Assembly (NCBI GenBank): GCA_003142595.1
Contig: PLMU01000017.1
Location: forward strand, 1 to 37,198
Length of the DNA: 37,198 bases
Source: Phycisphaerales bacterium
GTDB lineage: Bacteria > Planctomycetota > Phycisphaerae > Sedimentisphaerales > UBA12454
Direction of reading: 5' to 3'
Made by a program: the position numbers and the translations under genes. This document shows, piece by piece, positions 1 to 29,292 of this stretch (within the stretch, counting starts at the first letter, position 1; each line of letters begins with the position of its first letter). The notes under the pieces are model-generated. The model did not search any database and was not told where the DNA came from. It worked only from the letters and a program-made list of their open reading frames with translations.

Positions 1-438
1 GCCGACTGGCTGACCAAGCCGCGCCAGTGGACGATTGGCAAGATACTTCGTTTTATTCTGTTTATCGGGCCGATAAGCTCTCTCTTCGATTACTTGACGT
101 TTTTCATGATGCTATATGTTTTCAACTGCTGGAACAATCCGGCACTGTTCCACACCGGCTGGTTTGTGGAGTCGCTTTTCACTCAGACGTTAATTATCCA
201 TGTCATTCGCACCAACAAGATACCGTTTATCGAAAGCCGGGCCAGTTGGCCGCTAATCTTCACTTCCGTAATCATCGTCGCGGTAGGCGCATGGCTGATA
301 GTTTCGCCTCTGGCGAAAACGCTCGGGTTTGTCTCGCTGCCGCCGCTGTACTGGCTGTTTCTGGCAATCATGCTGCTGGGCTATGCGATTCTGACACAGG
401 TGGTTAAGACCTGGTTTGTTCGCAGGTTTGGAGAATGA
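1..438 (+). CDS. mgtA: Magnesium-translocating P-type ATPase, C-terminal part (partial)
   Basis: The window opens inside this gene; the reading frame is open from base 1 and ends in TGA at 436-438, leaving about 145 residues. They match the C-terminal membrane region of MgtA/MgtB type Mg2+ P-type ATPases. Visible are the segment GPISSLFDYLTFFMM, then a GWFVESLFTQTLIIHVIRT-type stretch followed by KIPFIESRA, and two further hydrophobic helices before a short basic tail. The family imports Mg2+ into the cytoplasm at the cost of ATP. The catalytic DKTGT and nucleotide-binding parts lie outside the window, so only the family is supported. It is followed after 72 bases by an RNB ribonuclease on the same strand. 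Any Mg2+-responsive leader would be upstream and cannot be seen. Confidence 0.88.
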   Translation, partial: ADWLTKPRQWTIGKILRFILFIGPISSLFDYLTFFMMLYVFNCWNNPALFHTGWFVESLFTQTLIIHVIRTNKIPFIESRASWPLIFTSVIIVAVGAWLIVSPLAKTLGFVSLPPLYWLFLAIMLLGYAILTQVVKTWFVRRFGE

Positions 439-2757: not shown

Positions 2758-5163
2758 ATGAAGGCAAAAAAAGTGTCTGAAAATAAAAATGAAAATGACA
2801 AGCCGTTGTCACCCGATCTGCTGCGAAAGATAAACGCCTATTGGCGAGCCGCCAATTATTTGTCGGTCGGTCAGCTATATCTCTGTAACAATCCTTTGCT
2901 TCGGGAGCCGCTGAATTTATCACACGTCAAGTCTATGCTGCTCGGGCATTGGGGCACGACGCCGGGTCAGAACTTTATTTATGTACATTTGAACCGGGTC
3001 ATCAAAAAGTACGATCTAAATATGTTTTATATTGCAGGCCCAGGCCACGGCGGCCCTGCGCTGGTAGGCAATACTTATCTCGAAGGCACTTACAGTGAAG
3101 TCTATCCGAATATCACCCAGGACGAAGCCGGTCTGAAAAAGCTGTTTAAGCAATTTTCATTTCCCGGCGGTATTTCCAGCCATGTTGCGCCGACGACGCC
3201 GGGGTCGATTCATGAAGGCGGCGAGTTAGGATATTCGCTAAGCCATGCCTTTGGTGCCGCGTTCGACAATCCCGATCTGGTCGTTGCCTGCATCATCGGC
3301 GACGGTGAAGCGGAAACCGGACCCTTGGCAACCGCATGGCACTCCAATAAATTTCTCAATCCGATAACCGACGGAGTCGTGCTGCCGATCCTGCATCTCA
3401 ACGGCTATAAAATAGCCAACCCAACTGTGTCGGCCCGCATAGAGCATGAGGAATTGGAGCAATTCCTGCGAGGCTGCGGATGGACGCCTTACTTTGTCCA
3501 AGGGGACGATCCGGAAAAAATGCATCAACTCATGGCCGGTACTTTGGAAGAGGTCATCGAGAGTATTCAGCAGATCAAAAATAACGCGCGAAATAAAAAC
3601 GATACCACTCGGCCACGCTGGCCGATGATAGTACTTAAGTCGCCTAAGGGCTGGACCGGACCGAAAGTCGTCGATGGTCTGCAAATCGAGGGCACCTTTC
3701 GAGCACACCAGATTCCATTACTGGTGGATTCCGAGCACCCCGGTCATCTCAAGCTCCTTGAGAGCTGGATGAAAAGCTATAAGGCGGAGGAACTCTTTGA
3801 TAAAGAGGGACGTCTAATGCCGGAATTGGTCGAACTGGCACCCAAAGGTGAGCGAAGAATGGGCGCAAATCCTCACGCCAACGGCGGATTATTATTGCAC
3901 GACCTGATTATGCCTGATTTTCGGAAATATGCGGTGAATGTGCCATCTCCAGGATCAGTTGAGGCCTCAGACGCGCATATGCTCGGAGAATTCTTGCGCG
4001 ATGTGATTAAGCTCAATCAGGAGCAGCGAAATTTCCGGATATTCGGTCCTGATGAAACGCTTTCCAACAGGTTGAATTGTGTTTTTGAGGTTACCAACCG
4101 GCAGTGGGAAGCCCGAACAAAAGAGAACGATGAATTTCTTGCATCCGACGGTCGGGTAATGGAGATGCTTAGCGAGCATCAATGTGAAGGTTGGCTCGAG
4201 GGATATCTGCTGACAGGCAGGCACGGGTTGTTTAACTGCTATGAAGCGTTCATTCACATTATCGATTCGATGTTTAACCAGCACGCCAAGTGGCTGAAAA
4301 TTACCGCGGAATTACCATGGCGGCGGAAAATTGCTTCGCTTAATTACCTGCTCGCATCGCACGTCTGGCAGCAAGCTCATAATGGTTTTACCCATCAAGA
4401 TCCCGGCTTCATCGACCACGTGGTAAACAAGAAAGCTTCTATTGTGCGCGTTTACCTTCCGCCCGACGCCAACTGCCTGCTATCGGTTGGAGATCATTGT
4501 TTGAGGAGCCGACATTACGTTAACGTCATAGTCGCGGGTAAATACCAGGCACCTCAATGGTTGAGTATGGATGCCGCCATTGAACATTGCACTAAAGGGA
4601 TTGGCGTATGGCAATGGGCGAGCAATGACCATAGCGTCGAGCCGGACGTGGTGATGGCTTGCTGCGGCGACGTGCCAACGCTCGAGACTCTGGCCGCTGT
4701 TTCTATCCTTCGTAAGCATCTGCCCGATTTAAAAATACGCGTGATCAATGTTGTAGATCTGATGAAACTCGAACCGAATACGGAACATCCGCACGGACTG
4801 AGTGATCAAGACTTCGATGCATTATTCACTAAAGACAAGCCAATCGTCTTCGCGTTCCACGGCTACCCCTGGCTGGTGCACAGGTTGACATACCGCCGTA
4901 ACAACCACGAAAACATGCATGTTCGGGGCTATAAGGAAGAAGGCACCATCACAACATACTTCGACATGACGGTTTTAAACGATCTTGACAGATTCCACCT
5001 GGTGCAAGATGTGGTTGATCGGCTGCCGCGATTGGGCGCCAAAGGGGCTCAACTGAAGCAGATGGTGCAGGACAAACTCGTCGAACATAAACAGTATATC
5101 GACAAGTACGGCCAGGACATGCCGGAAATTCGCAACTGGAAATGGGACGTAGAAGAGGTATAA
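2758..5163 (+). CDS. xfp: Phosphoketolase (xylulose-5-phosphate/fructose-6-phosphate type)
   Basis: About 800 residues long, the usual family size, this thiamine-diphosphate enzyme splits xylulose-5-P (and often fructose-6-P) with phosphate into acetyl-phosphate plus glyceraldehyde-3-P or erythrose-4-P. The family signatures are clear: GPGHGGPA near residue 98, [14 protein letters not shown] near residue 155, and the GDGEAETGP cofactor-binding segment near residue 182, followed by [11 protein letters not shown] second ATG lies two codons after the ORF's first ATG (2752); the second is preferred because AAAAGG sits seven bases before it. No acetate kinase or phosphotransacetylase lies nearby in the window, so acetyl-phosphate use must be encoded elsewhere. 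It is the last large gene of the + strand block that begins with the Mg2+ ATPase. Confidence 0.96.
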
Positions 5164-5213
5164 CATCACCGCATTGGAATTATTGGAAATTGAATTAAGA
5201 AAGGACAGGACCA

Positions 5214-5438
5214 ATGAATGAAAATGGACAAAATCACCATCGGCAGGAAAGGGAAGAGCACAACAAGAAGCATCATGACGATAAGCCTTACTGGAAACGG
5301 ATACATCATACCTGGAGTTTTTGGGTTTTCTTGTTTTTGATGTTAGCTGCCATCATATATTACATGCTGAGCGATAACTTGTCATTGCGGCCTCGCATCC
5401 AACCACAGCAACCGCCTTCAGGTGCCGTAGGAAAATAG
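5214..5438 (+). CDS. Small His-rich single-pass membrane protein
   Basis: This 74-residue protein has a hydrophilic N-terminal part with several His pairs (HH at residues 8-9, 20-21 and 31-32) rich in Glu and Lys. One strong transmembrane helix follows (about residues 34-52, WSFWVFLFLMLAAIIYYML) and then a Pro/Gln-rich tail. A GAAAGGACAGGA element precedes the ATG. It lies 50 bases after the phosphoketolase and may share its transcript. I do not recognise a named family. The His-rich segment could bind metal, but that is only a guess. Confidence 0.65.
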   Translation: MNENGQNHHRQEREEHNKKHHDDKPYWKRIHHTWSFWVFLFLMLAAIIYYMLSDNLSLRPRIQPQQPPSGAVGK

Positions 5439-5466
5439 AACCATAGAAAAATGATAGGAGACGCCT

Positions 5467-5580
5467 ATGAAGGAAAATGAACAAGCAACCGGAAATAAAC
5501 CCGAATCGAAGCCGGGATCGAAGAACGATTTGAAATCCCTGTCCATGCCGGAATTGGAGAAAAAATTGGGCAATCCATAA
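5467..5580 (+). pseudogene. 37-codon stub resembling the N-terminus of a proton-efflux P-type ATPase
   Basis: The frame from ATG 5467 to TAA 5580 encodes 37 residues: a polar, Lys/Pro-rich start, then DLKSLSMPELEKKLG and NP before the stop. Plasma-membrane proton-efflux P-type ATPases typically begin this way, with a polar leader and a sequence close to LKSLPMPELEKKLGSSPDGL. Here the similarity stops exactly where the cation-ATPase N-domain should continue, and the following DNA is repetitive non-coding sequence. It has a ribosome-binding site (ATAGGAGA) so may still be translated. I read it as the surviving 5' end of a deleted ATPase gene; the match is from memory of the family. A genuine small protein is the alternative. 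Confidence 0.5.
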
Positions 5581-5592
5581 TGTCCATAATTA

Positions 5593-5613
5593 GTTATCGG
5601 TTATCAGTTATCA
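5593..5613. repeat. Heptamer tandem repeat (GTTATCR x3)
   Basis: Three consecutive copies of the 7-mer GTTATC(G/A) lie directly after the ATPase stub. The following 160 bases hold further low-complexity sequence (repeats around AATACAG) and a small perfect palindrome CCCGCC-GAG-GGCGGG at 5720-5734. Confidence 0.6.
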
Positions 5614-5776
5614 GTTTAAGCGGATGAATTTGGTGCCTATGGCATGGCATAATAGCCATTGTGTTTGGAAAAAGAGAGAGTAAAATAGAATACAGAATAC
5701 AGTAGACAGAATAAGGAATCCCGCCGAGGGCGGGGCTGGTTCAGGAGACAGAAGAAAAAACAAGGAGAAAAATAAA

Positions 5777-6508
5777 ATGAAAATGAAAGTGAAAGACACC
5801 TGGTTCGAATTCAAAATGGCAAGTTTTGTATCAGTTGGTATGGGGTTAACGGCGTGGGTAACTACATATGTGGATGCAAGATTGACAACGTGTTTGCCGT
5901 ACCATGCCAGGGAATATCCAATGGGGTATTGGATTCTATTTATCATTCCTATTATTTTCGTTGCCATGTATTTGGGTAGTGTTTGGGATGTATCCTGGTA
6001 TAAGAAAATTATGCTTGCAGAGATGGGGCTTGTAATAGTGGGAGTGATTTCATTATTTAATTTTATCCCCGGATTTCCTCACGGGAATATGTCTACATGG
6101 CTCGTTCTTTATTGCATTGCAAGTACCATTGCTTACTGGATTCATTATACCCCTGTGAGGAGTGATTACACATCATGGCCGGACATTGTGGATGATGCGA
6201 AAATAGAAAGGGCTAAAGAGTCGATCAATTTGTGGCGCATTATAGGCATAACAATAGGCGCAGGCTATTTGGGGATTATATTGCAGTGGAGCCATCTATT
6301 AGGGATTGAGGCGCCCAATAATATTGCTTCAGATGTCAACGAGAAGTCTCTTGTCGGTATATTCCTTTCGATCCAATTGGTGTTCTTTTCCATTTTTATT
6401 ATATTTGGCCTGCTATATGAGAGCTACAAAAAAACTGAGGACGCAGCGAATGTTTTGTTAAGTATCAAGAAGGATAAAACTCATAAGGCTCAGGAAACTG
6501 AAGAATGA
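5777..6508 (+). CDS. Six-helix membrane protein of unknown function
   Basis: This 243-residue protein has about six predicted membrane helices, near residues 14-30, 50-68, 78-97, 104-122, 150-170 and 195-217. A soluble loop of about 25 residues lies between helices 4 and 5, and a charged Lys/Glu-rich tail ends the protein. A purine-rich ribosome-binding site (AAGGAG) lies about nine bases before the ATG. The gene is markedly more AT-rich than the phosphoketolase block and sits in an accessory stretch flanked by repeats. No family motif is recognised and no function is proposed. Confidence 0.7.
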   Translation: MKMKVKDTWFEFKMASFVSVGMGLTAWVTTYVDARLTTCLPYHAREYPMGYWILFIIPIIFVAMYLGSVWDVSWYKKIMLAEMGLVIVGVISLFNFIPGFPHGNMSTWLVLYCIASTIAYWIHYTPVRSDYTSWPDIVDDAKIERAKESINLWRIIGITIGAGYLGIILQWSHLLGIEAPNNIASDVNEKSLVGIFLSIQLVFFSIFIIFGLLYESYKKTEDAANVLLSIKKDKTHKAQETEE

Positions 6509-6660
6509 TAAATTAAACCGTTTTTGTCTAATGGACTATGTCATGCGGGAGGCAGATAAGATTTGTTGATGTTTTGTTGCCGGCCCCGATGAGATAGTTG
6601 CGACATCTCACAGGGCAGGTAAAGTAAAATGTTTTCAAGCAAAAAGTGTGGTAGATTATT

Positions 6661-7251
6661 ATGAGATCAATTGCCATGGAGGCTGAGAATAAATTTGCTA
6701 AAGAGTATGAAGCGATCTGGGAACACTGTGATACCAAAAGTGATATCGAGTGGATTGTATTAAAGGCCCATTTAGTATCAGAAAGTTATATGGATCGCTT
6801 TTTCAACACATTTTTTATGAGTGGAAAAAAGTTGCTAGATAGCGGTAACCTATCGTATCGACAAAAACTTGTCTTATCAAAAGCTATAGGCTTCTTCCCC
6901 GATGATATGTTGGATTGTCTGAGTAAATTGAACTTACTAAGAAATAAGCTCGCACATGACTTGGAATATCAAATATCAATTGAAGATGTTGATCTTATTG
7001 GACATTCTTTAGGGAGGTATTATTCAAAACTAAAAAGGGAGCGTACAGGAGGAATCAAAGATTTATTAATTGGTGTTTTGGGATTTGTGGTCGGTGGAAT
7101 GGCATATGGTTTGGTTGACTATGAATGTAAAATAGATCGCGGAAAGAAAACACAAAATGAAAATCAGAATATGTCACTTCCGCTGAAAGCGGGGAATCTT
7201 CGCGTCAGGAGAGATAAACGTCCTACTAAAAGGCAACGCAATACTGTATGA
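6661..7251 (+). CDS. HEPN-like protein with C-terminal membrane segment
   Basis: This 196-residue protein begins with an all-helical domain of about 115 residues. Near residue 93 it carries LRNKLAHD, which fits the R-x4-H signature of HEPN domains; this region also resembles the short bacterial families that share RNKLAH, such as DUF4145-type proteins. Many HEPN proteins are RNases of toxin-antitoxin or defence systems. A glycine-rich hydrophobic segment (LLIGVLGFVVGGMAYGLV, about residues 131-148) could be one membrane helix, then a basic tail. The start is uncertain: ATG 6661 or ATG 6676 (MEAENKF), neither with a clear ribosome-binding site. No nucleotidyltransferase or antitoxin partner is visible next to it. 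Nuclease activity is inference only. Confidence 0.6.
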   Translation: MRSIAMEAENKFAKEYEAIWEHCDTKSDIEWIVLKAHLVSESYMDRFFNTFFMSGKKLLDSGNLSYRQKLVLSKAIGFFPDDMLDCLSKLNLLRNKLAHDLEYQISIEDVDLIGHSLGRYYSKLKRERTGGIKDLLIGVLGFVVGGMAYGLVDYECKIDRGKKTQNENQNMSLPLKAGNLRVRRDKRPTKRQRNTV

Positions 7252-7286
7252 CAAGAATGTTGATATTAGCATAATGGCAGGATAGC

Positions 7287-7308
7287 CCCGCACCGGATTA
7301 GGTGCGGG
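7287..7308. repeat. Short perfect palindrome, 8-bp arms
   Basis: CCCGCACC and GGTGCGGG flank a six-base loop (GGATTA). No T-tract follows, so it is more like a small REP-type palindrome than an intrinsic terminator, though it could act as a weak 3' end for the HEPN-like gene. Confidence 0.5.
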
Positions 7309-7364
7309 ATGAAATTGGTGAGAGTTGTGATAGAAATTAGTATGTTATGTAAGGAGAAAAAAGC

Positions 7365-7913
7365 ATGTTTGGAATCGTTGTAATTTTTACCGTGCTTATG
7401 AGTGCTTTTCTGCTGGCGCTGGATACTAAATGGAGGAGAGGTAGAATTTTATATATACGTGTTATTATTGCGGTTGTTATAAATTTCATGGCTGCTGGTA
7501 TAAGTGCTGGTCAAAGCGGCGTTCCTTACGATGCTGCGGATTTTGTCGTAAGGTATTTCGCAATGCTGGCTTTTTTATGGTTCATTTTTATGCGACCAAG
7601 AAAATTAGCTGATGCTTACCTGCGCAAAGGGGCATACTTACTTAATGGTGGAAGGATTCAAGAAGCGTTCACTTATTTGAATGAAGCATTGGCAGTTACG
7701 AAATCTGATGAGACTAAAGGGGCAATCCTGTACAAGATAGCTATCTGTAATCTTCGTCTTGGACAAAAAGAACTTGCGGTTAAAGCATTAACTGATGCTA
7801 TTAAGGCTCAGCCATCTCTTAAAAATCAGATTGCCAAGGACAAGAATTTTGCCGAGCTTCAAGGCGATAGTGATTTCCGGAATTTAATTTCAACAGGTGT
7901 AACGGCACACTAA
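7365..7913 (+). CDS. Membrane-anchored TPR protein
   Basis: This 182-residue protein has three hydrophobic helices in its first half (about residues 1-18, 27-47 and 64-78). About 100 soluble residues follow, containing two tetratricopeptide-like repeats (LADAYLRKGAYLLNGGRIQEA and AILYKIAICNLRLGQKELA). The last part (NFAELQGDSDFRNLIS) resembles the end segment of many bacterial TPR proteins. TPR repeats mediate protein-protein contacts; the partner is unknown. The ATG has a clear TAAGGAG ribosome-binding site. It is the last gene of the AT-rich accessory stretch, without obvious functional links to its neighbours. Confidence 0.68.
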   Translation: MFGIVVIFTVLMSAFLLALDTKWRRGRILYIRVIIAVVINFMAAGISAGQSGVPYDAADFVVRYFAMLAFLWFIFMRPRKLADAYLRKGAYLLNGGRIQEAFTYLNEALAVTKSDETKGAILYKIAICNLRLGQKELAVKALTDAIKAQPSLKNQIAKDKNFAELQGDSDFRNLISTGVTAH

Positions 7914-8010
7914 GTATAAAAAAAATTGTTTAGCTAATGTTCTTCTTGGTTGGCGCATATAGCTCATTTCTTATGTATTGAATAGAGGAGGATTTCATGA
8001 TTTTAGATTT

Positions 8011-8040
8011 CTGGATTCCCGTTTGCACGGGAATGACAAT
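8011..8040. repeat. REP-like palindrome (ATTCCCGT-TTGC-ACGGGAAT)
   Basis: The 8-bp arms at 8015-8022 and 8027-8034 enclose a 4-base loop, preceded by CTGG and followed by GACAA. The minus strand would read VIPVQTGIQ, a conceptual peptide commonly seen where this type of dispersed palindromic repeat falls in a frame. It lies in the gap between the TPR protein and the PLP decarboxylase. Confidence 0.6.
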
Positions 8041-8130
8041 TCCCTTGATTATAAGATAGTTCCATATTATTCTTATGATACGAAAGGACACGGACGGAAA
8101 CACTGATAACCACAGACTGAAAAGGAAGTT

Positions 8131-9264
8131 ATGAAAGAAGAGCTTATCAAACTGGCCAAGGAACACGGGACGCCGCTGTTTATTATTGACCACGCCAAAA
8201 TACGGGAGAATTTTCAGACATTTAAGAAGAATCTGCCGAATGTTCAGGCTTATTACGCGGTAAAGGCAAACTCCAATCAGGAAATTATCAAAACCCTGTT
8301 CAACGAAGGGGCGAGTTTCGATGTCGCTTCGTATAACGAGTTTATGCAGATTTATAACCAGATAAAAAGCTTCAAAAAGGCGGAAAAAGACTTTTTTATC
8401 TGGGACAAAATCATCTTCTCCAATACCATCAAAGACAAAGACACTTTAAGAAAAATCAAAAGATATAAGCCTTTGGTAACTTATGATAATGCCGAAGAGG
8501 TGGACAAGATAAAGGAAAATTGCGAGACGGCTGGGCTGGTTTTGCGATTGAAGGTGCCGGATACGGGGTCGCAGGTTGAGATGAGCTCGAAATTCGGAGC
8601 TGAGCCGAGCGATGCGGCGGGACTGATAAAAAAAGTTTTCGATTCGGGACTTGCGGTTGAAGGTTTGAGCTTTCATGTCGGAAGTCAATGCACGAATTTC
8701 GATAATTACGCGGTCGCGCTGCAGATTACATCTGAAATTTTTAATGAAGCCAGAAAGAACGGCTATAATCTGAAAATAGTCGATATCGGCGGCGGGTTTC
8801 CGGCGTCTTATGATGCGGGTGTGCCGCGGTTCGAGCGGCTTGCGGAGATAATTGAATCGGAATGTAAAAGGCTATTTCCGGCGGATATAGAAATTATAGC
8901 TGAGCCGGGCAGGTTTATGGTTGCGACGACGGCGGTGCTGGTGTCGGAAATTATCGGCAAGGCGGTCAGAAACGGCAAGATATTCTATCATATAAACGAC
9001 GGCGTATATCATACGTTTTCGGGCATTGTTTACGACCACTGGATACCGAATTTCCAGCCGTTCAGGGATGGGCCGATAGAAGTTTGCGCGGTTGTCGGGC
9101 CGACGTGCGATAGTTTCGATAAAATATCGCTGTCGGAGCAGCTGCCGGCGGACCTTAAACTCGGCGATTACCTTTATACGGAAAATATCGGAGCATACAG
9201 CGTTGCATCATCGACGAAATTCAACGGGTTCGAAGGAGCGAAGATACTGCACATTAATAATTAG
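8131..9264 (+). CDS. Fold-III PLP-dependent decarboxylase (ornithine/lysine decarboxylase family)
   Basis: At 377 residues, this matches the eukaryote-like (alanine racemase fold) basic amino acid decarboxylases. The PLP-binding lysine is K45 in YYAVKANSN. The glycine loop GGGFPAS follows at 220-226, EPGRF at 258-262 contacts the cofactor phosphate, and GPTCDSFDK carries the active-site Cys at about residue 326. The CDSxD arrangement favours ornithine decarboxylase (ornithine to putrescine, EC 4.1.1.17) over diaminopimelate decarboxylase. Lysine/ornithine dual specificity or carboxynorspermidine decarboxylase cannot be excluded. AAGGAAG lies just upstream of ATG 8131. The secreted hydrolase and kdu genes follow on the same strand, but a polyamine role does not obviously connect to them. 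Confidence 0.88.
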   Translation: MKEELIKLAKEHGTPLFIIDHAKIRENFQTFKKNLPNVQAYYAVKANSNQEIIKTLFNEGASFDVASYNEFMQIYNQIKSFKKAEKDFFIWDKIIFSNTIKDKDTLRKIKRYKPLVTYDNAEEVDKIKENCETAGLVLRLKVPDTGSQVEMSSKFGAEPSDAAGLIKKVFDSGLAVEGLSFHVGSQCTNFDNYAVALQITSEIFNEARKNGYNLKIVDIGGGFPASYDAGVPRFERLAEIIESECKRLFPADIEIIAEPGRFMVATTAVLVSEIIGKAVRNGKIFYHINDGVYHTFSGIVYDHWIPNFQPFRDGPIEVCAVVGPTCDSFDKISLSEQLPADLKLGDYLYTENIGAYSVASSTKFNGFEGAKILHINN

Positions 9265-9295
9265 TTGTTAGTTGCTGGTTGATAGTCGCTAGTAT
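9261..9295. repeat. Degenerate heptamer tandem repeat (TTAGTTG-like x5)
   Basis: Five successive 7-mers read TTAGTTG, TTAGTTG, CTGGTTG, ATAGTCG and CTAGTAT. The first contains the TAG stop of the decarboxylase gene, so the repeat begins inside the coding sequence. It parallels the 7-bp repeat at 5593. Confidence 0.5.
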
Positions 9296-9314
9296 TTGGT
9301 ATAAGGAATATGAG

Positions 9315-10154
9315 ATGAAGAAAATAATTTTTGCGGCAGTAATAATCCTTAATGTTTTATCATTTGCCTGGGCGGGGGATATGAAGATGGATGTTGAATA
9401 CGGGAAAGCGGGGGATGAAACACTGCTGCTGGATGTAAACTCGCCGAATGGCGCTGGGCCGTTTCCGATAGCGATAATTGTGCACGGTGGCGGGTGGACT
9501 CGCGGCGATAAGCAGGGCGATGAAAAGGTTTTATTTGCGCCGCTGACTGACGCGAATTTCGTAGTGGTTTCGATTAATTACCGGCTTGCGCCGAAGAATA
9601 AATGGCCTGCGTGTATAGATGATGTTCTAACCGCAATCAAATGGGTCAAGGCCAACGCGGCCAAATTCAAAGGCGACCCGGACAAGGTTGCGCTATTCGG
9701 CTATTCGGCCGGCGGGCAGCTTGCCTGTCTTGCGGCGGTGATTGCGGAGAAGGAGACGACTGTGCAGGCGGTGGTAGGATTAGCTGCGCCAACGGATTTG
9801 GTGTTTGACTCGCTGCGGCGCGGGAATGTATCGTCATATTTGAAAGATTTGTTTGGATTGCAGGGTGCTGACGTCAATACGCCGCAGACGGTGCAGATAA
9901 TTTGGGAGGCTTCGCCGATAAATCATTTGCATACGGGTTTGCCGCCGTTTCTGCTGGTGCACGGGACAGCGGATAAGTCTGTGCCTTATCAGTTGTCGCT
10001 GAATTTTCAGGACAGGCTTAAAGAGTTTAAGGTGCCATGCGAACTTATTACGGTAAACGGAGCATCGCACAAGATTGTCGAATGGGGCAGTTTCGACGCT
10101 GATTTTACGAAGAAAATTGTCGATTGGTTGAATAAGACGCTGAATAAAAAATGA
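9315..10154 (+). CDS. Secreted alpha/beta hydrolase (acetyl esterase/BD-FAE-like)
   Basis: This 279-residue esterase starts with a signal peptide (MKKIIFAAVIILNVLSFAWA, cleavage near residue 20). It carries the hormone-sensitive-lipase/esterase marks: oxyanion-hole HGGGW near residue 57, nucleophile GYSAGG near residue 132, catalytic Asp in HGTADKSVP near residue 217, and His in GASHKI near residue 250. Secreted esterases of this kind remove acetyl or feruloyl groups from plant or algal polysaccharides. ATG 9315 is chosen over the upstream TTG 9279 because it starts the signal peptide and has AAGGA seven bases upstream. Position just before kduI-kduD suggests deacetylation of a uronate-containing polymer such as pectin; that is inference. 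Confidence 0.87.
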   Translation: MKKIIFAAVIILNVLSFAWAGDMKMDVEYGKAGDETLLLDVNSPNGAGPFPIAIIVHGGGWTRGDKQGDEKVLFAPLTDANFVVVSINYRLAPKNKWPACIDDVLTAIKWVKANAAKFKGDPDKVALFGYSAGGQLACLAAVIAEKETTVQAVVGLAAPTDLVFDSLRRGNVSSYLKDLFGLQGADVNTPQTVQIIWEASPINHLHTGLPPFLLVHGTADKSVPYQLSLNFQDRLKEFKVPCELITVNGASHKIVEWGSFDADFTKKIVDWLNKTLNKK

Positions 10155-15436: not shown

Positions 15437-15510
15437 GGGCTCGTAGCTCAGTCTGGTAGAGCAGTAGACTCATAATCTATTGGTCCAAGGTTCAAATCCT
15501 TGCGGGCCCA
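15437..15510 (+). tRNA. tRNA with CAT anticodon (Met elongator, or Ile2)
   Basis: This 74-base cloverleaf has acceptor stem GGGCTCG/CGGGCCC, D-arm TAGCTCAG, anticodon loop CTCATAA and T-arm CAAGG-TTCAAAT-CCTTG, with discriminator A. CCA is not encoded. The anticodon stem lacks the three G-C pairs of initiator tRNA. CAT can also belong to the lysidine-modified Ile tRNA, and sequence alone does not separate these here. Confidence 0.93.
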
Positions 15511-15526
15511 GTAATTAAATGGTTAT

Positions 15527-15597
15527 TGGGGAATAGTGTAACGGTAGCACGAGTGGCTCTGAACCATTTAGTCAAGGTTCGAATCCTTGTTCCCCAG
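15527..15597 (+). tRNA. tRNA-Gln (CTG)
   Basis: This 71-base cloverleaf has acceptor TGGGGAA/TTCCCCA, the weak first pair and G discriminator typical of glutamine tRNAs, anticodon loop CTCTGAA (anticodon CTG) and T-arm CAAGG-TTCGAAT-CCTTG. CCA is not encoded. It lies 16 bases after the CAT tRNA and probably shares its transcript. Confidence 0.93.
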
Positions 15598-15601
15598 TTA
15601 A

Positions 15602-15754: not shown

Positions 15755-17023
15755 ATGAATTTTTTTGCAAAATCATTTTACGAATATCGCAGAGTATGGA
15801 AAGCGATAAAGATTTTCCTGATGATTTCGGGGCCGGGGATAATCGTTATGGTCGCCGACAATGATGCCGGCGGAATCACCACTTACGGAGTTACCGGCGC
15901 CGCATACGGATACGGTCTAATCTGGTTTTTGGTGCTTCTGGGACCGATTGCATATTTTGTTCAGGAAATGACGGTCAGGCTCGGGGCGGTAACAAAACGC
16001 GGACACGCAGAGGCGATTTTCGATGGGTTCGGCGCGTTCTGGGGCTGGTTTTCGCTGCTTGATTTGTTCCTTGTCGATTTTCTAACGCTGGTTACGGAAT
16101 TTATCGGTATGACGGCTGCGCTAAGTATTTTTCATATCCCGCCGGTCATAACGGTAATCGGCGTGTGTATAGTTATGAGTATTATGGTGCTGCAGGGCAG
16201 ATACTGGACGTGGGAAAAAGTTGCACTGGTGTTTTGCGCGGTAAACCTGATTTATATCCCCGCAGCGTTTATTGTCCATCCATCTGTTTCGGATATAATC
16301 AGGCAGGGATTGATTCCTAACTTTCCGGGCGGATTCAATAATAAGATATTCTTTTTCCTGATGGCAAATATCGGAACGACAATCGCACCGTGGATGGTAT
16401 TTTTCCAGCAAAGTGCAGTGGTTGACAAGAGTATGCAGGAAAAAGACATTTTATGGGGGAAAGTCGATACGATGGTGGGTTCGTTTTTTACAGTGCTGGT
16501 GGCGATTTTTATTGTTGTAGTTACCGGGACCGTGCTGAAGGGTCAGCCGATTGAAAGCGCCGCACAGGCGAGCATTGCACTAATGAAAGTAAATTCTCAC
16601 CTTGGAACGTTTCTGGCGATAGGTCTTTTTGACGCAGGTTTCCTTGGCGCGATTTGTATTTCGCTGGCGAGTTCCTGGGCTGTCGGGGAGGTATTCGGCT
16701 GGGCACATTCGCTGAACAATAAGATTAAGGATGCGCCATGGTTTTATGCTATTTATTTTCTGACCCTTATCGGTGCCGGTATTGTTGTTCTGATTCCAAG
16801 GGCACCGCTCGTTCTTATTACGCTGTTTGTGCAGGTTATAGCGGTAACGCTGCTGCCTGCGGCACTGGTATTTTTAATACTGCTGCTTAATGACGAAAAA
16901 ATGATGGGAAAATATAAGAATACGCTGTTTCAAAATATAGTAACAACAACGATTGTCCTTGGTATAATCGTGCTATCTACGCTGTATGCCATAAGTGCTA
17001 TTTTTCCCAAGCTGTTTGGGTAG
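15755..17023 (+). CDS. Nramp-family divalent metal transporter
   Basis: This 422-residue protein with about 11 membrane helices is Nramp-like. In helix 1 it has SGPGIIVMVADNDAGGITTYG, where the classical DPGN metal-binding motif is replaced by DNDAGG. The helix 6 segment NIGTTIAPWMVFFQQSAV takes the place of the usual MPH motif. Loss of the canonical helix 6 Met is reported for Nramp-related transporters that move Mg2+ rather than Mn2+ or Fe2+. It is followed by a small membrane protein and a soluble MgtE-like sensor, which supports Mg2+ as substrate; that is inference. No M-box-type riboswitch fits in the 122 bases between the tRNA terminator and the start. Confidence 0.88.
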   Translation: MNFFAKSFYEYRRVWKAIKIFLMISGPGIIVMVADNDAGGITTYGVTGAAYGYGLIWFLVLLGPIAYFVQEMTVRLGAVTKRGHAEAIFDGFGAFWGWFSLLDLFLVDFLTLVTEFIGMTAALSIFHIPPVITVIGVCIVMSIMVLQGRYWTWEKVALVFCAVNLIYIPAAFIVHPSVSDIIRQGLIPNFPGGFNNKIFFFLMANIGTTIAPWMVFFQQSAVVDKSMQEKDILWGKVDTMVGSFFTVLVAIFIVVVTGTVLKGQPIESAAQASIALMKVNSHLGTFLAIGLFDAGFLGAICISLASSWAVGEVFGWAHSLNNKIKDAPWFYAIYFLTLIGAGIVVLIPRAPLVLITLFVQVIAVTLLPAALVFLILLLNDEKMMGKYKNTLFQNIVTTTIVLGIIVLSTLYAISAIFPKLFG

Positions 17024-17050
17024 AATCAGATAATATTTTAGAGAAAATGT

Positions 17051-17263
17051 ATGACACGACGATTTAGAATATTCGTTTATCAGATTGAGAAAATTCTGAA
17101 GACCAGATTCAGCAAGATAATCGAAATAAATAAAAAGTATTCTCATCCGCGTCTTGTGGTGAATAAAAGTACGGCCTTTGCACTGCTTATGCTGAGAATA
17201 TATCTGCTTTTTCTGGTCGGATTGCTGATATTTAAATTTATATTAACGGCCAGAGGCAAATAG
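17051..17263 (+). CDS. Small basic single-pass membrane protein
   Basis: This 70-residue protein lies between the Nramp-like transporter and the MgtE-like protein, with gaps of 27 and 8 bases, so it very probably belongs to the same operon. The first 40 residues are basic (MTRRFRIF, several Lys/Arg). A single membrane helix follows (about residues 43-66, AFALLMLRIYLLFLVGLLIFKFI) before the short end ARGK. A weak GAGAAAA element precedes the ATG. No family is recognised. It could be an accessory subunit of the transporter, but only position supports this. Confidence 0.68.
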   Translation: MTRRFRIFVYQIEKILKTRFSKIIEINKKYSHPRLVVNKSTAFALLMLRIYLLFLVGLLIFKFILTARGK

Positions 17264-17271
17264 GGTGCAAA

Positions 17272-18552
17272 ATGAATGAGCAGATTAAAACAGGCCCGGC
17301 AAAACCAGAAGCCGTGTATTTTCTCAGTGAGATAAAAGAAAAAAAAGTACTCCTCAACGGTAAAAAAATAGGGTGGCTTTCCGATATCGTTATTGTGGAC
17401 GCGGATAAAGCCGCGGAAGTAACGCATATCGTTGTCGAAAGGCCGTTTGGATATCCGTCACTGCTGATACCGTGGGAGAAAGTCGTTTCGATAAACGATG
17501 TTGTTACAGTGGCCATTGAAAGTGTTGAAAAGTATGAAGGCAAACCGGCGGAGAATATGGTGCTGCTGCGAGACCATATCCTCGACAAAAAAGTGCTGGA
17601 CCTGAACGGCAATGAAGTCGAAGTGGTTTACGACATCAAACTTGTCCTTCGTAATAACCGGCTTTATGTCAGCGATGTGGATTCAAGCAGGTATGGACTG
17701 CTGCGGAGAATAGGACTCAAAGGATTGGCGAATTTTATTTACGGCCTGGCGAAAAAGATAAGAAGCGACACGATTCCGTGGCGATATATCGAACGGCTGC
17801 CTGAACAGATTACGAGTTTTAGAGGGGATGTGAAATTGAAAATCCTCAAGGAAAAGCTTTCTGATATACCGCCTGTGGATTTGGCGGATATGCTCGAAGA
17901 GCTGGACCATGAGCAGCGGGTGACAATATTCAAGCAGCTTGAAAGCGACCATGCGTCAGATACACTCGAAGAAATTGAGCCGCGAGTGCAGAGAGACCTG
18001 ATTTCCGCATTAAAGAAAGAAAAAGTGGCCGAACTGATAAATAAAATGACTCCCGCGCAGGCGGCAGATATCCTTGCGATTCTGCCGGGGGCGGACGCAA
18101 ACGACCTTATCAAACTTCTCGATGAAATAAATCGCAATAAGGTTAAGATGATTTTAAGTGATAAAGACCAGAAAAATATAGATATCGCGACGTCGAAATT
18201 TATCAAATTCTCGCCTGAAACGATGGTGCAGGAAGTTATTGACCATCTGCGTATTATCGCGGCAGGTAAAGATGTCATAATGTATATTTATGTCGTTGAT
18301 GAACAGGACACACTGCGAGGCGTGGTTGACCTGCGTGAACTGCTGCAGGCAAAGGCGGATGCAAAATTAAATGATATAATGATAACAGGGGTAAGAAGTC
18401 TTAACGCCACCAGCACACTGTATGATGCCTCGGAAATGTTTAATCATTACGGATTCCGCGCTATTCCGCTTGTCGATGACAACAACAAGATACTTGGGGT
18501 AATAACATCTAAAGATGTGACGAACTTAAAACACCTGTGTTTCATCGATTAA
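17272..18552 (+). CDS. PRC-barrel/MgtE N-domain/CBS protein without a membrane channel
   Basis: This 426-residue soluble protein has two PRC-barrel-like segments in the first 175 residues (FLSEIKEKKVLLNGKKIGWLSD and VLLRDHILDKKVLDLNGNEV). An MgtE N-domain follows (about 196-290, with LADMLEELDHEQRVTIFKQL and repeats of the ADILAILP kind). A pair of CBS domains ends the protein (about 300-426, closing with GFRAIPLVDDNNKILGVITSKDV). In the MgtE channel, the N and CBS domains bind Mg2+ and gate the pore; here the C-terminal membrane part is absent. Its place eight bases after the small membrane protein and downstream of the Nramp-like gene suggests it senses Mg2+ and regulates that transporter. 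No clear ribosome-binding site beyond AGGGTG. Confidence 0.85.
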   Translation: MNEQIKTGPAKPEAVYFLSEIKEKKVLLNGKKIGWLSDIVIVDADKAAEVTHIVVERPFGYPSLLIPWEKVVSINDVVTVAIESVEKYEGKPAENMVLLRDHILDKKVLDLNGNEVEVVYDIKLVLRNNRLYVSDVDSSRYGLLRRIGLKGLANFIYGLAKKIRSDTIPWRYIERLPEQITSFRGDVKLKILKEKLSDIPPVDLADMLEELDHEQRVTIFKQLESDHASDTLEEIEPRVQRDLISALKKEKVAELINKMTPAQAADILAILPGADANDLIKLLDEINRNKVKMILSDKDQKNIDIATSKFIKFSPETMVQEVIDHLRIIAAGKDVIMYIYVVDEQDTLRGVVDLRELLQAKADAKLNDIMITGVRSLNATSTLYDASEMFNHYGFRAIPLVDDNNKILGVITSKDVTNLKHLCFID

Positions 18553-18721: not shown

Positions 18722-20758
18722 GTGGCTGAAATTGATAATTTTCGCAATATAGTATTACTCGGGCACGGCGGGGCGGGCAAAACAAGTCTTGCCGAGGCGA
18801 TTCTCCATAAGACCGGAAAGACCAACAGGTTAGGTTCTGTCGAGGAGAAAAACACCGTTTCCGATTATGACGATGAGGAAAAGGAACGAGGCCATTCGAT
18901 TCACTCGGCTATTATGTATACAAGCTATAACGGCAAGGTTGTTAACCTGATAGATACTCCCGGCTATCCGGATTTTGTCGGTGCGGCACTGACTTCAATT
19001 CCCGCCGCCGATTGCTGCGCGATAGTAATAAATGCCGCTGCCGGTATCGAGAATAATACACGAAAACTTTTTCAGGCCGCCACAGATGCAGGAAAGGCCA
19101 GGATTATAGTCATCAATAAAATTGACGCTGAAAACGCCGACATTCCTGAACTGATTAAGATTATCCAGCAGACTTTCGGCACAAATTGCAAATGCGCAAA
19201 TCTGCCGTCCGAAGACAAGTCATCCGTTATTGACTGCCTTAAAAACGACAGCGGCAAAACGCTCTTCTCGAATGTCGCATCGGCCCATACGGAGCTTATC
19301 GAAAGCGCGATTGAAGCCGACGACAAACTTATGGAAGCATATCTCGGCGGCGAGCCGGTATCTCCTGATCAAATCGCCGGCGTTTTCGCCAAGGCTCTTG
19401 CCCAGGGAAATATTATTCCTATTCTTTTCACAAATGCCCGCAAAGAAGTCGGCACAACAGAGCTTTTGGAGTTGCTGACTGCTTACGCTCCTTCGCCGGC
19501 ACAGGTAAAACCGGCAAAACTTATCGATGGCGAAAAAGTGGTAGAACTCAAGGCCGATGCCTCAGGTCCGCTCGCGGGCCTTGTTTTCAGAGTCGGCAGC
19601 GACCCTCGTTCGAATATGAAATATGCGTCAATGAGAATTTTCAGCGGAACGCTCAAAAGCGATACTGGTATGCTGCTGAATACCGATAGAAAAGCTATTC
19701 GCCCCGGCCATGTCCTTAAAAATCAGGGTTCTGAAACCCATGAAATACCCGCTGGCGTCGCAGGCGATATCGTTACTCTTGCCAAACTTGAAGAGCTCAA
19801 GATGGGAGACCTTATTCACGACGGAAAAGTTTCCGGTAAATTCGAAATGCCGAAAGTGCCGGCCCCGATGTACAGTCTGGCGCTTGAGCCGACATCGAAG
19901 GGTGACGAGCAGAAATTAGGCACCGCGATGGAAAAGCTTACTGAAGAGGACGTTTGCTTCAAAGTCAGCCGCGACCATCAGACGCATGAGCTTGTTATCA
20001 GCGGTATGGGCGATTTGCATCTGCGGGTAATGCTTTCCAAAATGGAAAAGCGATTCAAACTTTCAGTTACAACCAAACGGCCCAAGATTCCATATCGTGA
20101 AACGATTACCGCAAAGGCCGACGGCCATTATCGCCACAAAAAACAAACCGGCGGTGCAGGCCAGTTCGGCGAAGTTTTCCTTACGGTCGAACCCGCTCCT
20201 CGCGGGTCGGAACCGACTCTCGTGTTTTCATGGGATATTTTCGGCGGCACAATTCCAGGCCAATTCGAAGCTCCGATTCTCAAAGGTATTCAGGAAATTA
20301 TGGAAAATGGCGCAGTTGCCGGCTTCCCGATGAAAGATGTAAAAGTATCCATAACCGATGGAAAGCACCATCCTGTTGACTCGAAAGAAGTCGCTTTCCG
20401 GGCCGCAGGCAAAGGCGCATTTCTCGACGCCATTCATAAAGCAAAACCAGGTCTGCTTGAGCCGATAGTTAATATTGAAATTACAGTTCCAGCCGAGTTC
20501 GTCGGCGGAATCGCAGGCGACCTGTCAAGCCGCCGCGGCAGAGTGCAGGGTCAGGATATGCTCGCGGGAAATATGATGGTGATTAAAGCTCTAGTGCCTC
20601 TGTCTGAAGTCGCGAATTATGATAGCCAGCTCAAAAGCGTTACCGGCGGTCAGGGCAGTTATTCAATGACGCTCAGTCACTATGAAGTCGTGCCGCCCAA
20701 CGTCCAGCAGCAGGTCATTGCCCAATACGCCAAGCAGAAACAGGTAGAAGCAGAATAA
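18722..20758 (+). CDS. Elongation factor G paralogue (EF-G2-like)
   Basis: This 678-residue translational GTPase has all EF-G domains. G1 is GHGGAGKTSL at residues 14-23, G3 DTPGYPDF near residue 80, and G4 NKID near residue 138; the G2 region reads DEEKERGHSI. Domain IV is recognised by YRHKKQTGGAGQFGEV near residue 463 and domain V by the RRGRVQGQD segment near residue 600. Classical EF-G has GHIDAGKTTT in G1; the GHGGAGKT form and the length place it in the EF-G2-type branch, whose members translocate ribosomes or have specialised roles. It starts with GTG after a good TTAGGAG site. Its stop is immediately followed by the end of aroDE on the other strand. Confidence 0.9.
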   Translation: MAEIDNFRNIVLLGHGGAGKTSLAEAILHKTGKTNRLGSVEEKNTVSDYDDEEKERGHSIHSAIMYTSYNGKVVNLIDTPGYPDFVGAALTSIPAADCCAIVINAAAGIENNTRKLFQAATDAGKARIIVINKIDAENADIPELIKIIQQTFGTNCKCANLPSEDKSSVIDCLKNDSGKTLFSNVASAHTELIESAIEADDKLMEAYLGGEPVSPDQIAGVFAKALAQGNIIPILFTNARKEVGTTELLELLTAYAPSPAQVKPAKLIDGEKVVELKADASGPLAGLVFRVGSDPRSNMKYASMRIFSGTLKSDTGMLLNTDRKAIRPGHVLKNQGSETHEIPAGVAGDIVTLAKLEELKMGDLIHDGKVSGKFEMPKVPAPMYSLALEPTSKGDEQKLGTAMEKLTEEDVCFKVSRDHQTHELVISGMGDLHLRVMLSKMEKRFKLSVTTKRPKIPYRETITAKADGHYRHKKQTGGAGQFGEVFLTVEPAPRGSEPTLVFSWDIFGGTIPGQFEAPILKGIQEIMENGAVAGFPMKDVKVSITDGKHHPVDSKEVAFRAAGKGAFLDAIHKAKPGLLEPIVNIEITVPAEFVGGIAGDLSSRRGRVQGQDMLAGNMMVIKALVPLSEVANYDSQLKSVTGGQGSYSMTLSHYEVVPPNVQQQVIAQYAKQKQVEAE

Positions 20759-25709: not shown

Positions 25710-25783
25710 GGGCTCGTAGCTCAGTTGGTTAGAGCGTGCGCCTGATAAGCGCAAGGTCGGAAGTTCGACTCTTCCCGGGCCCA
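25710..25783 (+). tRNA. tRNA-Ile (GAT)
   Basis: This 74-base cloverleaf has acceptor GGGCTCG/CGGGCCC, D-arm TAGCTCAG, anticodon loop CTGATAA (GAT) and T-arm GGAAG-TTCGACT-CTTCC, with discriminator A. CCA is not encoded. This is one of the two tRNAs usually found between 16S and 23S. Confidence 0.96.
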
Positions 25784-25834
25784 CTAATGTAAATTGAGAT
25801 TTCAGATTTGAGATTTAAGATTTAGTATCGGCTC

Positions 25835-25907
25835 GGGGATGTAGCTCAACTGGGAGAGCGCCGGCTTTGCAAGCCGGAGGTTGCAGGTTCGATCCCTGTC
25901 ATCTCCA
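25835..25907 (+). tRNA. tRNA-Ala (TGC)
   Basis: This 73-base cloverleaf has acceptor GGGGATG/CATCTCC, D-arm TAGCTCAA, anticodon loop TTTGCAA (TGC) in a GC-rich CCGGC/GCCGG stem and T-arm GCAGG-TTCGATC-CCTGT, with discriminator A. CCA is not encoded. Confidence 0.96.
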
Positions 25908-25986
25908 TTGAATTAAGGTCTCGTCGAAGACGGGACAGAAAATAGTATGATAGCTCCGGACTACGATTCGGCAGACTATCGGTAAA

Positions 25987-26001
25987 GTTCTTTAAAAAGT
26001 A
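25987..26001 (+). promoter_or_regulatory. boxA-like element (23S spacer copy)
   Basis: This is an exact copy of the 15-base boxA-like element at 25630, here between tRNA-Ala and 23S. A processing-type hairpin lies just upstream (25918-25925 with 25929-25936). Confidence 0.6.
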
Positions 26002-26098
26002 AATAGCGTAGATGTCTCAAGGTGGGTTGTGGATTAGTATACACAACTTTCACCGAGCGCCATTATGAAAAAACCTACAATCAGTTTTTGATTGATAT

Positions 26099-29072
<2,974 letters not shown>

Positions 29073-29142
29073 ATCAATCATTTACTGATATATGGTTTTT
29101 TTATAATACGCTCAATTGAGCATCTACGCTTTTGATATTTAA

Positions 29143-29174
29143 AATCTGAGATTTTAAATTTGAAATCTCAGATT
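29143..29174. repeat. 12-bp perfect inverted repeat between 23S and 5S
   Basis: AATCTGAGATTT and AAATCTCAGATT enclose an 8-base loop. Similar words (TTGAGATTT, CAGATTTGAGATTT) occur between tRNA-Ile and tRNA-Ala at 25795-25824. It is likely a processing hairpin of the transcript. Confidence 0.6.
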
Positions 29175-29183
29175 AGTCAAACT

Positions 29184-29292
29184 TCCTGGTGACTTTACTG
29201 GCGGGGAAACGCCTGATCCCATTCCGAACTCAGAAGCTAAGCCCGTCAGGCCAATGGTAGTCCTTCGGGGCGAGAGTAGGTCATCGCCAGGA
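29184..29292 (+). rRNA. rrf: 5S ribosomal RNA
   Basis: About 109 bases: the terminal stem TCCTGGTGAC pairs with GTCATCGCCAGGA, and the conserved core CCATTCCGAACTCAGAAG lies near 29219. It lies about 110 bases after 23S and is followed at once by a terminator. Confidence 0.95.

Follow-up and report, generated by a model that had tools for sequence, protein, structure and literature searches.

Three adjacent genes at positions 15,755 to 18,552 of contig PLMU01000017.1, from a Phycisphaerales bacterium (assembly GCA_003142595.1), probably form one Mg2+-uptake module. The stretch of DNA analysed, called the window below, comprises positions 1 to 37,198 of this contig. The genes encode an Nramp-related transporter, a small membrane protein and a soluble protein related to the cytosolic domain of MgtE, hereafter the regulator (Table 1). 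All three open reading frames (ORFs) lie on the same strand, with 27 bases between the transporter and small-protein genes and 8 bases between the latter and the regulator gene. The location of the set and the 8-base gap are those given in the initial annotation of the window. Its description of the third protein as a PRC, MgtE_N and CBS protein without a channel also agrees with the Pfam scan, which returned MgtE_N (PF03448, E 7.3e-22), CBS (PF00571, E 7.9e-19, two stretches) and PRC (E 8.9e-05). A second PRC-like repeat may be present.

Table 1 Features of the module and its borders in the window
Feature	Position	Strand	Role or property	Evidence
tRNA-Met(CAT)	15437..15510	+	Left border of the insertion site	ARAGORN, Rfam; in G003, the MgtA-type ATPase is bordered by this tRNA pair too
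tRNA-Gln(CTG)	15526..15598	+	Left border of the module	ARAGORN, Rfam; directly before EF-G without the module in G007, G010, G012
Nramp-related transporter	15755..17023	+	422 residues, 11 predicted membrane helices	Pfam Nramp, E 6.7e-72
Small membrane protein	17051..17263	+	70 residues, single helix	No Pfam family; homologue in 79/79 testable loci
Soluble PRC-MgtE_N-CBS regulator	17272..18552	+	426 residues	Pfam; cytosolic domain of Thermus thermophilus MgtE (2yvy), E 3.2e-22
Domains of the regulator	PRC barrel 15-81; MgtE_N 200-296; two CBS to 418 (residues)		No channel domain	Pfam
Elongation factor G (EF-G)-like protein	18722..20758	+	Right border of the insertion site, outside the module	Pfam; synteny

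To survey the conservation of the gene set, genome contigs were scanned with two queries, the window transporter and a relative of 55% identity. Among the 386 relatives found, the best 80 were used; they are 55-79% identical and represent over 20 bacterial and archaeal phyla. The regulator adjoins the transporter in 80/80 of these loci (clade A). The small protein is present in 79/79 testable loci, in 78 by tblastn and in L124 by its reading frame; L136 was not testable as its contig ends inside the regulator. A neighbourhood survey had been suggested in the initial annotation, and its outcome is that the set is kept across the 80 nearest loci. Two gene orders occur, namely Nramp-small-regulator (67/80) and Nramp-regulator-small (12/80). 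For the residue counts, one transporter with an in-frame stop (L115), one regulator with a short ORF (L075) and the regulators cut by contig ends (L080, L092, L103, L115, L117 and L136) were dropped; with the window included, 74 regulators and 80 transporters were left. The stop in the L115 transporter, near position 1511, falls within an otherwise full-length match and reflects either a sequencing error or a pseudogene. The three genes also appear to be inherited together: the Mantel correlations were 0.68, 0.43 and 0.42 (60 loci), values reached by 0/999 permutations. The association of the three genes exceeds chance.

The small protein has a conserved core, EINxKYxxP..LxxLRxYLxxLxxLLxYKF. 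In a 55-member alignment, L48 and Y51 are invariant, R49 is kept in at least 90% of the members, and P33, L45, L52, L55 and F63 are nearly invariant. Where the order is Nramp-regulator-small, the protein has only 36-39 residues and the N-terminal segment is missing. The window protein matched no Pfam family, and the 55 members gave only single chance-level Pfam matches (best E 0.023). Two possible origins were rejected: homology to a solved chain, as only chance matches were obtained (best E 0.35), and descent from TM1 (the first transmembrane helix) or the plug helix of MgtE, for which a profile-profile comparison with 22 full-length MgtE proteins gave a probability of 0.1. The gene is under purifying selection; the nonsynonymous rate (dN) was below the synonymous rate (dS) in all 12 of 13 close pairs for which dS was computable, with ratios of about 0.1-0.4. 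Moreover, exactly one strong copy per genome was found in 50/50 module genomes, in a search that took in 50 of the 80 loci.

Searches with the small protein alone reached beyond the module. They gave four matches in the phylum to which a Methanoregula locus belongs (196 genomes), three in the module and one taken as chance. In 199 Acidobacteriota genomes (the phylum of an Acidobacteriaceae locus), 18 places were found, 12 of them in the module. Of the other six, one was taken as chance and five lie directly behind a related Nramp gene that has no adjoining regulator and whose product is 42-44% identical to a module transporter. No regulator was found in the larger regions of four of these five loci, three with several kilobases on both sides and L181 with only about 1 kilobase upstream, where its contig stops. 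All five genomes encode a regulator elsewhere. In four of them it stands alone; G367 has one in its module and one beside a transporter of the type of EleNRMT, a Mg2+ transporter of the SLC11 family with a known structure. None of the EleNRMT-type loci examined yielded the small protein, whether or not a regulator adjoined the transporter. Because of these five loci, the absence from EleNRMT-type loci and the transporter tree presented below, the small protein tracks the transporter clade more closely than the regulator. Since the three genes recur together in very different bacteria and archaea, the data suggest that the small protein is a missing subunit of the transporter.

The closest solved structure for the transporter is EleNRMT (7qia, E 1.2e-63, vs about 1e-14 for MntH), and the AlphaFold2 (AF2) model of the transporter matched EleNRMT with a VIA Z of 42. 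Aligned on D55 and T224 of EleNRMT, the helix-1 site reads D37-A-G-G40 and the helix-6 site T208-T-I-A211, that is, DxxG/TxxA and not DPGN/AxxM. The departure from the DPGN and helix-6 methionine motifs noted in the initial annotation is thus real. The same motifs, with DxxG replacing DxxN in helix 1 and TxxA/T replacing A/CxxM in helix 6, characterize NRMT proteins according to the available part of PMC8806188. E115 and Q360 align with E133 (TM3 Glu) and Q379 (TM10 Gln) of EleNRMT. The TM6 His of proton-coupled Nramps is replaced by W213, with the TM3 Glu kept as E115. The window transporter therefore shares with EleNRMT the DxxG/TxxA site, the TM3 Glu, the TM10 Gln and 11 helices (7qia; excerpt of PMC8806188), but the two are only about 32% identical, EleNRMT has no counterpart of D103 in TM3, and loci of the EleNRMT clade yielded no small protein. 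In a tree of 44 Nramps, where clade A was represented by the window and by 11 of its 79 usable loci, the small-bearing transporters form a single clade (100/99). The EleNRMT-type clade (98/94) is its sister, and both stand apart from 20 other Nramps. Likewise, rows A and C of the tree together with the EleNRMT-type rows form a clade (100/99), with the 20 other Nramps outside.

Several observations bear on the metal transported. In an Rfam scan that covered 61 of the 80 loci, 7/61 loci had an M-box riboswitch (RF00380) on the strand of the transporter gene and 210-807 bases upstream of it, and none had the manganese riboswitch yybP-ykoY. Among the M-box loci are L068 and L062, which encode transporters with 77-79% identity to that of the window. 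Two of the loci deserve a separate remark. L108 carries a tandem pair of M-boxes with identical scores upstream of the module (4950-5174 and 5566-5790), which is either a double control or an assembly duplicate. In L079, a clade-A transporter, small protein, regulator and EleNRMT-type transporter follow one another behind an M-box (5434-10037); a single regulator therefore lies between two kinds of NRMT. As for the host genome (98.5% complete), no CorA was recognised by a search positive in 14/14 control genomes, and no MgtE channel by one positive in 9/14. Among 12 relatives, CorA was present in nine and MgtE in eight.

The genomic position of the module is informative as well. It sits between tRNA-Gln and EF-G, which are adjacent in three relatives (G007, G010 and G012). 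In G003 and G009, an MgtA-type ATPase occupies exactly this site, and these two genomes are the only ones of 13 that exceed the TIGR01524 cut-off. The junction coordinates are 7916-12897 in L210 and 2125-7319 in L214. In the other relatives, the junction has inverted tRNAs (G006), another gene (G011) or no tRNA nearby (G001, G002, G004 and G005), and G008 has no close EF-G match. The tRNA-Gln/EF-G junction would thus appear to be a site of exchange of Mg2+ importers, being empty or holding an MgtA-type ATPase or the Nramp module. From riboswitches, genome content and locus synteny, Mg2+ is the most likely substrate.

To examine the sensor sites, the regulator residues were matched to those of T. 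thermophilus MgtE, the sites being assigned as in the accessible text of PMC5882242 and PMC5529423. Among the 74 regulators, the equivalents of E59, D95 and D247 are acidic or Asp in 68, 71 and 74, respectively. The equivalent of D91 is Asp in 0/74, that of D226 is acidic in about one third, and that of D250 is mostly non-acidic, Asn or Lys being commonest. In the window regulator, these last three positions (Mg4/Mg5 sites) are A262, G394 and N418, none of them acidic. As a control, 22 full-length MgtE proteins of relatives of the window were compared; D91 is kept in 22/22, D226 is acidic in 21/22 and D250 in 22/22. The ATP site, by comparison, is retained in the regulators: Y170 in 74/74, F227 as Phe or Tyr in 72/74 and D188 as an acidic residue in 65/74, with N203 varying. 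F227 is Leu in all 22 control proteins. In MgtE, the sites lost here bridge to the plug helix (PMC5882242, part of the text), and the detached regulator has no plug helix. Compared with the cytosolic domain of T. thermophilus MgtE (2yvy), the regulator thus shares MgtE_N, two CBS domains and the ATP site, but it lacks the channel, the plug helix and the plug-facing Mg2+ sites and has gained a PRC barrel. Judged from these residues, the regulator may respond to nucleotides and contact its carrier differently from the plug mechanism of MgtE. The initial annotation had seen in it the Mg2+-sensing half of MgtE, re-used. The cytosolic half is indeed found beside an Nramp-type transporter, and a small membrane protein completes this conserved unit; the sensing part of the claim fares less well, with the plug-bridging Mg2+ sites lost and the ATP site kept.

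The association of transporter and sensor was known before. Shin et al. (2014) reported that most NrmT genes neighbour a homologue of the N-terminal cytosolic domain of MgtE and that some are under M-box control, and they speculated on feedback regulation (PMC4072509, available portion). The resemblance to NrmT of Clostridium acetobutylicum and its MgtE-N neighbour is evident, as an Nramp-related transporter stands beside an MgtE-cytosolic homologue, with an M-box in some members (same source). In contrast, the examined EleNRMT-type loci have the regulator upstream, elsewhere or not at all and no small protein, and the window transporter belongs to the sister clade. The initial annotation knew of no description of the three-part arrangement. 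Transporter and sensor were a pair already in print in 2014 (PMC4072509, in part). For the small protein, searches of the open-licence PubMed Central literature found no account of a small membrane protein accompanying an Nramp-type transporter. Relative to the literature searched, the third component and both of its gene orders are new.

Structure prediction, also proposed in the initial annotation, was applied to single chains in which stop codons were read as Ser. The AF2 model of the L131 triple (913 residues) had a mean predicted local distance difference test (pLDDT) score of 90.5 and a predicted template modelling (pTM) score of 0.61; that of the window transporter with the small protein (502 residues) reached 91.2 and 0.89. 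In both models, alignments with solved 11-helix Nramps end at transporter helix 11, and those with human NRAMP1, DMT1, SiNRAT and EcoDMT run through the helix of the small protein. The aligned end of human NRAMP1/DMT1 falls at the same small-protein position (R+4/R+5) in both, in the same register. In L131, the whole regulator lies between transporter and small protein, yet the TM12-like placement is the same. With the placement read from the first and last aligned residues only, the models predict that the small-protein helix occupies the TM12 position of 12-helix Nramps. The check therefore yielded a location for the small helix, in two models, and none for the regulator. In human DMT1/NRAMP1 and EcoDMT, a 12th helix stands where AF2 puts the small protein, but there it is part of the same chain and here it is a separate gene. 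D103 in TM3 is Asp in 84/84 small-bearing transporters and in 0/8 of the EleNRMT type, which makes it a candidate partner for R49 of the small protein.

The small protein could act in other ways. It had been viewed as a possible coupling subunit; in this role, its basic N-terminal segment would bind the regulator and its helix the transporter. Its gene does lie between those of transporter and regulator in 67/80 loci, and its charge pattern predicts an N-terminus in the cytosol, where the regulator would be, in 74/80. However, the entire segment is missing in the 12 loci where the gene follows that of the regulator. The protein is also kept with related transporters at the five loci where no regulator adjoins, and is absent from examined EleNRMT-type loci even where one does. 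Coupling is thus not favoured and seems unlikely to be its role, with the reservation that at the five loci a regulator encoded elsewhere could be coupled in trans. Alternatively, the protein could be a regulatory micropeptide acting on transporter stability, like MgtS, MgtR and MgtU on MgtA/MgtB, with no structural role. Size and single helix fit this known class (PMC10710835, available part), but wherever the locus was testable, its gene and that of the transporter form one run, its invariant residues lie within the helix and one strong copy per genome is the rule (50/50), so that this explanation, too, is rather improbable.

Other doubts concern the metal and the sensor. The module might import Mn2+ or another transition metal, the MgtE-like protein being a general nucleotide sensor. 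The NrmT of Acidobacterium capsulatum rescued a Mn2+ transport mutant (PMC4072509, in the part available), and the ATP site of the regulator is better kept than the Mg2+ sites. This alternative is nevertheless doubtful in view of the M-box in 7/61 loci without any Mn2+ riboswitch, the lack of a soft methionine ligand in the transporter, the MgtA-type ATPase that two relatives carry at this site and a host without recognised CorA or MgtE. At the other extreme, the regulator might sense Mg2+ exactly like the cytosolic domain of MgtE. It has the MgtE_N and CBS domains and the largely acidic equivalents of E59, D95 and D247 (68, 71 and 74 of 74), but the D91 equivalent is never Asp and that of D226 is acidic in about one third, vs 22/22 and 21/22 in full-length MgtE; furthermore, the D250 equivalent is mostly non-acidic and the plug helix is missing. 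Identical sensing is accordingly the least probable of these alternatives, and a brake that responds to nucleotides is a likelier role for the regulator than that of a duplicate of the Mg2+ sensor of MgtE.

The explanation preferred here is that the three genes constitute one horizontally mobile Mg2+-uptake module, in which the small protein is a dedicated subunit and the regulator a nucleotide-responsive brake; its probability is put at roughly 60%. Several points weigh against it. The A. capsulatum pair is the only published test of a sensor and NrmT; there, the transporter gave Mn2+ rescue and weak Mg2+ rescue, and co-expression of the partial MgtE gene brought no gain in Mg2+ rescue (PMC4072509, as far as its available text goes). 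In the window, Rfam found no M-box and no conserved RNA beyond tRNA and rRNA. Another Mg2+ importer may exist in the host, because the contig edge (window 7-435, + strand) carries the C-terminal part of a P-type ATPase of the MgtA type, which shares about 50% identity with the EF-G-side ATPase of G003; the remainder of this ATPase was not found in the host assembly. With regard to the models, the AF2 helix runs parallel to TM12 and thus has its N-terminus outside, in conflict with the charge pattern. The chain order, with the small protein after the transporter in a single chain, may bias AF2 toward TM12. The position of the regulator is not fixed by the L131 triple because the pTM is 0.61. 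Finally, L124 and L125 lack the Arg at R49 and keep D103, so that the putative salt bridge is not strictly conserved.

Elsewhere in the window, tRNA-Ile, tRNA-Ala, 23S and 5S rRNA genes follow in this order (25710-29292), but the 16S rRNA gene is missing ahead of them, where the end of a protein ORF lies about 600 bases from tRNA-Ile. The arrangement indicates an unlinked or split rRNA operon.

A mechanism for the Mg2+ module can be outlined. By analogy with EleNRMT, the 11-helix transporter would move mostly hydrated Mg2+ down its gradient without proton coupling. The small protein would pack against it, probably at the peripheral site filled by the covalent 12th helix in DMT1, NRAMP1 and EcoDMT, and would stabilise or gate it. 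The regulator, located in the cytosol, would brake or throttle the transporter in response to an adenine nucleotide (ATP or Mg-ATP) and perhaps through residual Mg2+ sites, and would do so without the plug-helix mechanism of MgtE. A more far-reaching proposal, against which the odds stand somewhat, is that the small protein is the 12th Nramp helix moved to a gene of its own. The system, an obligate assembly of 11+1 helices controlled by a detached MgtE-like nucleotide regulator, would then be the first SLC11 transporter with more than one subunit. It would have spread as a module between bacteria and archaea and could stand in for an MgtA-type Mg2+ ATPase at one and the same position in the genome.

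In general, SLC11/Nramp transporters are regarded as machines made of one chain. Many annotations will miss the small gene because it is short (36-39 codons in one group), and biochemistry on such transporters may for the same reason omit a subunit. The module also offers a natural test of a CBS/MgtE sensor plugged into an unrelated carrier. If the proposal is true, the clade-wide separate helix would be a new SLC11 subunit and would provide a clean handle on the role of the peripheral 12th helix.

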